A DNA stretch of 32,420 nucleotides from Chloroflexota bacterium (GTDB lineage: Bacteria > Chloroflexota > Dormibacteria > Dormibacterales > Dormibacteraceae). The first letter of the stretch is position 1, and every line of letters begins with the position of its first letter. The notes beneath the pieces are model-generated. The model was not told the origin of the DNA and ran no database searches. It was given only the letters and a program-made list of their open reading frames with translations. A program made the position numbers and the translations under genes. This document shows positions 25,237 through 27,871 of the stretch, piece after piece. The DNA is taken from positions 1-32,420 of the forward strand of contig VBDS01000011.1 of NCBI GenBank assembly GCA_005889085.1, in the 5' to 3' direction.

Positions 25237-25743
25237 CTAGTTCTTTGGTCCCTTACTGCGAACTTCGTCCACTTTCACGAGGGCATCCCGGAGGCCCTTG
25301 ATCCAGTCGGCCTGGTGCATGCCGACCAGGCGCACGCACCACGCAAGAGCCTCGCTGCGGCTCCGGGCGACCCCTCCGGCGACCAGGGTGTCCAGGATGG
25401 CGCGTTCGGGCATCCGGAGCCGTGTCATGACCGGGACGCTCAGCGTGGTGAACACCTTGACCTCGTCGCCGCACCGGGCTCCCCACGCGACCTTGCGCCG
25501 GAACTGGCGTTCGGCCTCGCGGGCGATCCGGATCCGGTCGTCCCTGGTCTCTTCACGGAAGCGCTCGATCCGGGCCGCCCTGGCGGCGGCCAGAGCCTCC
25601 TCGGAAGTGCCCGCGGCAAGCTCCACGTCCGGGAGCGTGCCGATCACGAGGATCTCCTCCCCGTCCGCTGAAACGTCGGGCGGGCCGGCAAACCAACCGG
25701 ATGGGATGCGGGAGGCAAACCAGCTGCGGACGTCCTCGGGCAT
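25237..25743 (-). CDS. hypothetical protein with C-terminal ribbon-helix-helix-like segment
   Basis: VPVMTRLRMPERAILDTLVAGGVARSRSEALAWCVRLVG resembles the RHH/CopG beta-alpha-alpha pattern; N-terminal part has no recognised family. Confidence 0.55.
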   Translation of the reverse strand: MPEDVRSWFASRIPSGWFAGPPDVSADGEEILVIGTLPDVELAAGTSEEALAAARAARIERFREETRDDRIRIAREAERQFRRKVAWGARCGDEVKVFTTLSVPVMTRLRMPERAILDTLVAGGVARSRSEALAWCVRLVGMHQADWIKGLRDALVKVDEVRSKGPKN

Positions 25744-25765
25744 TGATTACAACGTTACAGCCTAC

Positions 25766-25779
25766 CCCCATGTATGGGG
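25766..25779. promoter_or_regulatory. perfect palindrome upstream of the RHH-like gene
   Basis: CCCCAT-GT-ATGGGG about 23 bp upstream of the ATG at 25743 (minus strand). Confidence 0.35.
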
Positions 25780-25805
25780 AGATGGCGCGGGAGCGTCAGA
25801 GGGGC

Positions 25806-25821
25806 GCCGCCGGAGGGCGGC
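25806..25821 (-). terminator. GC-rich hairpin abutting the ssb stop codon
   Basis: GCCGCC-CTCC-GGCGGC on the minus strand directly after TAA at 25824-25822; no T-tract, so terminator function is uncertain. Confidence 0.35.
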
Positions 25822-26169
25822 TTACGCCGCCGCCTCCTGCGGCTTTGGACCGAGCGGTTTCAGGCTGTCAACCACGATCTCGGTCCGCGATCGCTTCTGG
25901 CCGGCAGTGTCCTCCCAGGTGTTTGTCTGAAGCCTTCCGTCGGCGTAAACGAGCCTGCCCTTGTGGAGGTACTGGCCTGCGAACTCGGCCGTCTTGCCGA
26001 ACGCCACCAGGTGGTGGAACTCGGTCTGCTCCCGCGCCTTGCCCTCGTCGTCCTTGCCGATGTACGTGTGGGTGGCGAGCCGCAGCTTGGCGACGTAGGT
26101 GCCTTTGGGCGTCGCCTTGACCTCTGGATCCGCCGCCAGGTTGCCGATAAGAGTGACTCTGTTGATCAT
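25822..26169 (-). CDS. ssb: single-stranded DNA-binding protein
   Basis: MINRVTLIGNLAADPEVKATPKGTYVAKLRLATHTYIGKDDEGKAREQTEFHHLVAFGKTAEFAGQYLHKGRLVYADGRLQTNTWED; SD GGAGGTG upstream. Confidence 0.93.
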   Translation of the reverse strand: MINRVTLIGNLAADPEVKATPKGTYVAKLRLATHTYIGKDDEGKAREQTEFHHLVAFGKTAEFAGQYLHKGRLVYADGRLQTNTWEDTAGQKRSRTEIVVDSLKPLGPKPQEAAA

Positions 26170-26233
26170 CGCATCACCTCCGTGAAATTGGCTCCAGGCT
26201 AGGGTCGGGCGCCCCGGGCGCCAACCCAGGTTG

Positions 26234-26719
26234 TTAAGAGTCGAGAAACGTCGCAGGGTCGACTGGGCGGCCGTCGACATTGACCTGCAGGTGGACGTGT
26301 GGGCCCGTCGCAAGACCGGTGGCCCCGAGCAGGCCAATGACCTGCCCTGGTGCAACCGTCTGACCAGCGGCGATCCGAAACGCCGCGAGGTGGCAATACA
26401 GGATGCGGACGTGCGCGTCGACCGTAACGACGACGAAGTTGCCGGCTCCGGCCGGGTCGAAGCCAGGGAACGCTATCCCCTCGGTCGCCGAATGCACCTC
26501 GGTCCCTTCCCGAGCCGCGAGGTCGATCCCAGTGTGGATGTGGTGCCAGGGACAGAGCGGGTCGAATGGTTCCAGGTCCAGCGTGCTGCAGCCGAAGGGC
26601 TGGGTGATGGTGGCTCCTATGACGACGCTGCCCACCGGAAGCCGGACATGGGTCGGCACCTGCGTCGCGGTCACGAGCCAGACCGTGACCGCCAGCGCGG
26701 CGATGGCGAGAAGACGCAC
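26234..26719 (-). CDS. M23 family metallopeptidase with N-terminal signal/anchor
   Basis: Hydrophobic N-terminus LLAIAALAVTVWLV; HTGIDLAAREGTEVHSATEG...ILYCHLAAFRIAAGQTVAPGQVIGLLGATGLATGPHVHLQVN. GTG start at 26719. Confidence 0.9.
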   Translation of the reverse strand: MRLLAIAALAVTVWLVTATQVPTHVRLPVGSVVIGATITQPFGCSTLDLEPFDPLCPWHHIHTGIDLAAREGTEVHSATEGIAFPGFDPAGAGNFVVVTVDAHVRILYCHLAAFRIAAGQTVAPGQVIGLLGATGLATGPHVHLQVNVDGRPVDPATFLDS

Positions 26720-27604
26720 CTAAGCCTTGGCCAGCGCGTGCCCGATGTGGACGAAAGATGTATGGACGATCGACTCGAGCTTGTGGGCGGCCTTTTCCGT
26801 CCCGCCCATCGCTCCCGGCACCTTGAAAACGACCAGCAGAGAGGCGAGCGCGAACAGATGGTGGACGGGGCTCACACCGTCGTGCTCCAGCGCAAAGCCG
26901 ATCGACAGGACGAATAGCTGCGCCGGCTGCATGAAGAGATTGGTCGCGAAATGGGACATCCACATCTTCGAGAGGTGGTTCGTCTCGGGCAGCATGAAGA
27001 GCAGCGCGGCAAGGGGCGCGGTGATCGCAAGTACGATGAGCACCGCGTAGCGGACCAGGTAGCTGATCGCCAGCGCGCCATAGCCCGCGGCAAGTGCTCC
27101 GGTCGTGATCACCTCCCACGTGCCCTCGTTGGCGTTGTGCGCGATCCCCGCGGCGAGGGTGGAGAGATCGTCGTGCGTGCTGAAGCTCTGCACCGCCTGG
27201 CTCATCGCATTGGCGGCGCCCACACCCATCTGGAACATCGGCATCGCGAAGTTGATCAGCACCACGGCCATGAAGAGCCTCGGCAGCAAGATGCGCGCCG
27301 TGTACTGGGTGAAGAGGCCGTGGCCCCACATGATTCGGTACGAGGCCCACAAGGCGATGAGGACCAGCGCCGCGTCCGCGACGAGCTGCACCTTCGGTTC
27401 GAAGCGCTGGATGGCGGCGGCGTTCACGAAGTCGCCGCCCGTTTCGAGGTCGGTCGTGCTGAGGATGAACTTGAACCAGACGTTGAGCAGCAGCCCGACG
27501 CTGTCGTCGAGCATCTTGGCGAGGATCAGGTTCGGATGGACGATGGTGTAGAGGTAGCCGTCGATCCTGCTCAGCTCGACATAGAGCTCATGGAGCCAGT
27601 CCAT
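26720..27604 (-). CDS. polytopic membrane protein, TrbL/VirB6-like
   Basis: 294 aa, multiple hydrophobic segments (AALVLIALWASYRIMWG, LLPRLFMAVVLINFAMPMFQ, YLVRYAVLIVLAITAPLAALLFMLPET); position after a VirB2-like gene. Confidence 0.6.
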   Translation of the reverse strand: MDWLHELYVELSRIDGYLYTIVHPNLILAKMLDDSVGLLLNVWFKFILSTTDLETGGDFVNAAAIQRFEPKVQLVADAALVLIALWASYRIMWGHGLFTQYTARILLPRLFMAVVLINFAMPMFQMGVGAANAMSQAVQSFSTHDDLSTLAAGIAHNANEGTWEVITTGALAAGYGALAISYLVRYAVLIVLAITAPLAALLFMLPETNHLSKMWMSHFATNLFMQPAQLFVLSIGFALEHDGVSPVHHLFALASLLVVFKVPGAMGGTEKAAHKLESIVHTSFVHIGHALAKA

Positions 27605-27607
27605 CGA

Positions 27608-27871
27608 TCAGTGCGAGTTCGGCACCGAGCTGGTGAGGATTCCGACCAGCGAGCTCGCCACCTCGACGCCGATCGTGCCGACGACGATGCGCTGGATCCA
27701 CTGCTTGGCCGCGAGCGCGGACTTCGTCTCCACGGCCGTGATCTTCCAGATGAACGCGAAGATGAACGCGAGAGCGCCGATGGATCCGACGAGCGCCTGG
27801 CCGATGTGAATCCACGTGTTGATCAGGTTGACGATGGGCGTGATGTCGGGTTCGCCGGTGAGAAAAACCAT
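27608..27871 (-). CDS. small two-TM protein, VirB2/TrbC pilin-like
   Basis: 87 aa; NTWIHIGQALVGSIGALAFIFAFIWKITA and WIQRIVVGTIGVEVASSLVGILTS: two hydrophobic segments with a short charged loop. Confidence 0.55.
   Translation of the reverse strand: MVFLTGEPDITPIVNLINTWIHIGQALVGSIGALAFIFAFIWKITAVETKSALAAKQWIQRIVVGTIGVEVASSLVGILTSSVPNSH

Follow-up and report, generated by a model that had tools for sequence, protein, structure and literature searches.

A block of four genes in a Dormibacteria genome, encoding a VirB2-like protein, a TrbL/VirB6-like protein, an M23 peptidase and an SSB, is very probably one half of a machine derived from a type IV secretion system (T4SS), with its motor encoded elsewhere on the chromosome. 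This machine probably handles DNA. Our analysis gives about an even chance that it is a domesticated monoderm T4SS for DNA uptake upstream of ComEC. We propose more tentatively a class-wide competence T4SS of ancient origin in a presumed monoderm lineage. Stripped of relaxase and coupling protein but equipped with a pilin, a wall hydrolase and a tail-less SSB of its own, it would feed ComEC in genomes that have no type IV pili.

A conserved gene block

The window, meaning the whole stretch of 32,420 nucleotides that was analyzed, is contig C204 of a Dormibacteria MAG (2.8 Mb, 86% complete) whose close relatives are soil MAGs of Candidatus Dormibacterota or "Chloroflexi". The class-wide survey covered 61 Dormibacteria genomes, all of them MAGs, in which a single absence is weak evidence, and genome content was assessed by targeted searches. 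The labels f1 to f4 denote families and g10 a genus in the genome search; the window genome (G000) falls in f1. Five minus-strand open reading frames (ORFs) had been predicted at 25237-27871 of the window, and all five are present:

27608..27871, minus strand: VirB2/TrbC-like pilin candidate (87 aa, two hydrophobic helices)
26720..27604, minus strand: TrbL/VirB6-like inner-membrane channel (294 aa, polytopic; PF19597 TrbL_4, E 6.8e-6)
26234..26719, minus strand: M23 cell-wall endopeptidase (161 aa; PF01551, E 7.7e-24)
25822..26169, minus strand: second, tail-less SSB paralogue (115 aa; TIGR00621, E 3.7e-35)
25237..25743, minus strand: AbmR-family ATP-binding transcription factor (168 aa; NF058631, E 7.2e-74)

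The VirB2-like and TrbL genes are separated by 3 nt, not by the 4 nt first reported, and the GTG of the M23 gene does abut the TAG of TrbL, leaving a gap of 0 nt. The SSB gene starts 64 nt after the M23 gene and has a clear ribosome-binding site, its ATG following GGAGGTG; 78 nt lie between the SSB and AbmR genes. Conservation of the neighborhood had been suggested as a check on the prediction, and identical gene order was found in 16 further Dormibacterota contigs, a few of them short and interrupted by contig ends, where the block sits inside the same larger synteny. Compared with three relatives, all five genes have dN/dS values of 0.04-0.31. The four genes for the VirB2-like protein, TrbL, M23 and SSB are syntenic and evolve as a block under purifying selection. 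This shared order and constraint, together with the intact M23 motifs described below, indicate that the block is more than a chance arrangement.

The fifth gene had been labeled RHH-like. No Pfam family matched its product at E<=1, hence there is no RHH match, and the protein scores 246.9 bits against NF058631 (AbmR; cut-off 160). AbmR was considered as a component of the apparatus and rejected. Only f1 showed its gene next to the cluster, and it is probably a neighbor.

Identity of the pilin candidate, channel and peptidase

The VirB2-like protein, which has no recognizable signal peptide, shows 79% mean column identity across 17 genomes. None of the curated pilin models was matched above cut-off, and PF04956 (TrbC) had no match in the window genome. 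An orthologue in another genome (G071) gave a weak match, under the cut-off, to PF18895 T4SS_pilin (E 6.7e-4), the model used for the T4SS pilins of Patescibacteria (PMC12102498). Profile comparison with hhalign aligned the family to VirB2-like proteins encoded beside VirB4 in other Chloroflexota (83.6%, E 8e-6, 78 columns). One genome has a partial second copy, a 53 aa ORF upstream of the intact gene (L004:8815-8976) with 83% identity over 42 aa.

For TrbL, the protein of the window falls just under the cut-off of PF19597 TrbL_4 (26.1 bits, cut-off 27), and an f4 orthologue is above it at 40.9 bits. The M23 protein has an N-terminal hydrophobic stretch and intact HxGxD/HxH motifs (HTGID and HVHL), making it a candidate for a VirB1-like role. 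Its gene follows TrbL in f1, f2 and f3, and was not found in the f4 cluster.

Structure prediction appears to add little on the topology of the two membrane proteins. In the proposed structural check of the 87-aa protein, AlphaFold predicted two helices (71.8), and Foldseek returned no significant match in the PDB, the best having an E of 4.1 and the Agrobacterium tumefaciens T-pilus (8exh) an E of 9.8. The TrbL model, built on a shallow alignment, has a pLDDT of 46.9, and PDB profile searches with both proteins returned nothing significant. The T4SS assignment, originally made from topology and gene order, is supported by homology, namely the TrbL_4 match, the weak T4SS_pilin match and the VirB2-like profile match, and by linkage to PrgI and VirB4 in f4, with no help from structure prediction.

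The motor genes lie on another contig

The original prediction saw no VirB4 in the window, which is correct for the window and incorrect for the genome. Its suggestion that an ATPase lies elsewhere was borne out by a search of the genome for the VirB4 P-loop family, which located VirB4 on contig C183. The order there is PrgI, VirB4, a 196-aa protein and then an alpha/beta hydrolase-like ORF. This VirB4 matches PF19044 (1.2e-11, above cut-off), NF045971 (1e-67) and the PDB VirB4 structure 4ag5 (2.5e-30), and its Walker A and B motifs are intact, as they are in eight other aligned Dormibacteria VirB4s. The PrgI ORF, which overlaps the VirB4 frame, scores 30.2 bits against PF12666 (cut-off 27). 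The 196-aa protein (C183:2919-3509, locus L077) has no Pfam or NCBIfam match; it adjoins VirB4 in f1 and f4 and was found in 54 of the 61 class genomes, suggesting that it is a conserved partner without a known family.

The two halves are tied together by f4, in which PrgI-like, VirB4, 196-aa, VirB2-like and TrbL genes are contiguous in this order, with one extra ORF intervening in G119 and G188; the f4 PrgI-like ORF has no Pfam match. In addition, six f1 genomes (G027, G071, G079, G157, G166 and G169) carry both halves on one contig, about 12-116 kb apart, indicating that the two halves are truly separate on the chromosome.

Several further features were observed around the VirB4 loci. Each of the five f1 genomes examined has a tRNA-Lys(CTT) gene next to PrgI-VirB4 (L077:402-477 in the window genome); the f2 and f4 loci examined do not. 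We did not accept it as the insertion scar of an element, as the tRNA of the window genome is divergent, with its 5' end facing PrgI. Among f2 genomes, VirB4 follows the Tad pilus genes T2SSE, T2SSF and CpaB in G045 and adjoins a Flp-like pilin ORF in G054 (f2 loci L090:2527-9927 and L124:5411-9020), a neighborhood that suggests a link between the VirB4 ATPase and Tad pili. A further VirB4 cluster, about 14 kb away from the first and with VirD4 close by, occurs in f4 genomes (L082 and L079; G119:C98, G143:C60), and that of G119 also includes a large 6-TM protein.

Distribution, descent and missing conjugation genes

The apparatus genes, mostly single copy, extend across the class. TrbL was found in 56 of the 61 genomes and VirB4 in 55, representing 24 of 24 genera, although the VirB4 count includes weak matches or the second VirB4 type and falls to 51 at E<1e-40. 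The VirB4 and TrbL trees are congruent, each containing one Dormibacteria clade divided into f1 versus f2+f4. These clades are separate from the other Chloroflexota, and the VirB4 clade is also separate from the second VirB4 of f4. Such congruence fits vertical co-inheritance rather than recent mobility.

The core parts, VirB4, PrgI and TrbL, are those of a monoderm (MPF-FATA-like) conjugative T4SS, yet the further parts by which such a conjugation system is recognized were not found in the window genus. VirD4 (PF02534) was not found in any of the eight genus members searched, the window genome among them, a PF03432 search found no relaxase in any of these, and TcpC/VirB8 (PF12642) was not found in the eight and was above cut-off in no genome of the class. 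These results argue against a conjugation system. Some relatives have VirD4 and relaxase matches elsewhere in the genome; the VirD4 of f4 lies near the second, different VirB4, and VirD4 was not found in 27 of the 49 genomes that have TrbL together with VirB4.

A dedicated SSB and its association with ComEC

An SSB gene lies beside TrbL in 41 of 51 f1-f3 genomes, second to the replicative SSB. The linked SSB is generally shorter, and the acidic tip is missing at all 22 loci compared. Canonical SSBs have the tip in 19 of 20 cases, the twentieth (L138) being cut at a contig end; that of the window genome (contig C140) ends in DPDEIPF. Tail-less pneumococcal SsbB still protects internalized ssDNA (PMC3128108).

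In the window genome, a ComEA-like gene and ComEC lie side by side. Across the 61 genomes, 37 have both a linked SSB and ComEC, 15 have neither and nine are mixed (Fisher p=5e-7; p=0.009 without f4), an association that is suggestive only, as the counts treat related genomes as independent. In genus g10 (G063, G190), ComEC is missing along with TrbL, the window-type VirB4, the 196-aa protein and the linked SSB. Three f2 genomes (G127, G161 and G179) have ComEC and no linked SSB.

Two observations bear on whether the T4SS parts would be needed for uptake. Type IV pili occur in many genomes and could themselves perform DNA uptake, which counts against a role for the T4SS. At the same time, 11 of the 34 genomes that are near-complete combine ComEC and TrbL with no strong PilT/PilB match (the PilT search is cluttered by related ATPases, and only strong PilT/PilB matches were counted as a type IV pilus); these genomes would need a route to ComEC other than a type IV pilus. 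Family f4 keeps PrgI-VirB4-VirB2-TrbL, and ComEC, the linked SSB and an M23 gene in the cluster were not found there. The f4 core must therefore act without ComEC, and either its function there is another one or it has no need of ComEC. Conjugative elements, too, often carry SSB genes, which likewise counts against reading the linked SSB as a sign of uptake.

Proposed function and alternatives

The class Dormibacteria is believed to be monoderm, with one membrane. Under the uptake reading, VirB4, docked by PrgI, would assemble VirB2 into a short pilus or pore, with TrbL in the membrane, and the M23 peptidase would open the cell wall locally. DNA from outside could then be brought in and passed to ComEA/ComEC, with the dedicated tail-less SSB coating the incoming single strand. 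Overall, the machine would operate like Helicobacter ComB or archaeal Ced.

The less likely but most substantial alternative is that a domesticated T4SS acts as an exporter of DNA or protein, or forms a surface or contact pilus, the SSB serving donor-side or unrelated DNA work. Such a function has been proposed for the Patescibacteria T4SS, which are chromosomal and mostly relaxase-less (PMC12102498), and it would accommodate both the persistence of the f4 core without ComEC and the position of VirB4 beside Tad/Flp pilus genes in G045 and a Flp-like pilin ORF in G054. An exporter would be expected to select its substrates, but no coupling protein was found in the window genus, and a tail-less SSB encoded beside the channel gene, with its association with ComEC, fits incoming ssDNA better.

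Two further alternatives invoke conjugation itself. Active conjugation or mobilization, with a relaxase and coupling protein of undetected families or in assembly gaps, is improbable. It draws on the 86% completeness of the MAG, on searches that covered PF03432, PF02534 and PF12642 only, and on the VirD4 and relaxase matches elsewhere in some relatives; against this, VirD4 and relaxase were not found in any of the eight genus members, more than half of the TrbL- and VirB4-bearing genomes are without VirD4, the f4 VirD4 accompanies a different VirB4, and mobility fits poorly with the chromosomal synteny and the congruent trees. Even less credible is that the genes no longer have a function and are what is left of a decaying integrated conjugative element. 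Although the split loci, the failure to find relaxase, VirD4 and TcpC and the homologous conjugation-type clusters of other Chloroflexota would suit a remnant, this explanation is already contradicted by class-wide conservation, and the mostly single-copy genes, dN/dS of 0.04-0.31, intact catalytic motifs and congruent trees also stand against it.

Relationship to known systems

The closest known systems share some features with the Dormibacteria genes and differ in others. As in the T4SS of Patescibacteria (CPR), there is a monoderm-type VirB4, PrgI, VirB6 and a VirB2-like pilin, on the chromosome and mostly without a relaxase, and the pilin family of those systems, PF18895, weakly matches a Dormibacteria orthologue (PMC12102498). 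In contrast to them, the f1 system is split in two loci and accompanied by a tail-less SSB and an M23 peptidase, its distribution is linked to ComEC, VirD4 was not found in the window genus, and no tandem pilin arrays were seen in Dormibacteria, the one partial second copy at L004 aside.

The archaeal Ced/Ted importers are likewise domesticated, combine a VirB2-like pilin, a VirB6-like channel and a VirB4-like ATPase, and have no coupling protein listed (PMC9905601), as none was found in the window genus; the Ced pilin also has no recognizable signal peptide. Unlike Ced/Ted, the Dormibacteria set is bacterial and adds PrgI, M23 and SSB, and its role in import is a proposal. Matches to the CedB/CedD models are only marginal and do not support orthology (NF041017, 13.5 bits, cut-off 700; NF053655, 19.7 bits, cut-off 600). 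The combination typical of Ced/ComB systems, chromosomal VirB2, VirB4 and VirB6 with no coupling protein, was found in the window genome, its VirB2 part as a candidate whose orthologues match a pilin model below cut-off. Helicobacter ComB provides a precedent for chromosomal T4SS parts working with ComEC (PMC13395361), as proposed here for Dormibacteria, but ComB is diderm and has a VirB11 ATPase, whereas Dormibacteria have monoderm-type PrgI and VirB4. The linked SSB is comparable to competence SsbB in being second to the replicative SSB, and differs from pneumococcal SsbB, which has an acidic tail (PMC3128108).

Full-text literature on Dormibacteria with type IV secretion, ComEC or VirB4 yielded no paper on such a system. 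If the uptake reading is true, the machine would be a rare example of conjugation equipment converted to DNA uptake. This class-wide, pilin-bearing, relaxase-less T4SS would then be an independent bacterial case, and these soil bacteria, mostly uncultured, would have a concrete means of exchanging DNA.

The conjugation-type clusters of other Chloroflexota (L107-L112) share with Dormibacteria TrbL, a VirB2-like protein, VirB4 and, in some, PrgI, in one cluster, but fall outside the Dormibacteria clade in both the VirB4 and TrbL trees. Several of them (among L107-L111) also carry a zinc-finger primase-like ORF along with another large ORF, and are apparently conjugation-type elements.
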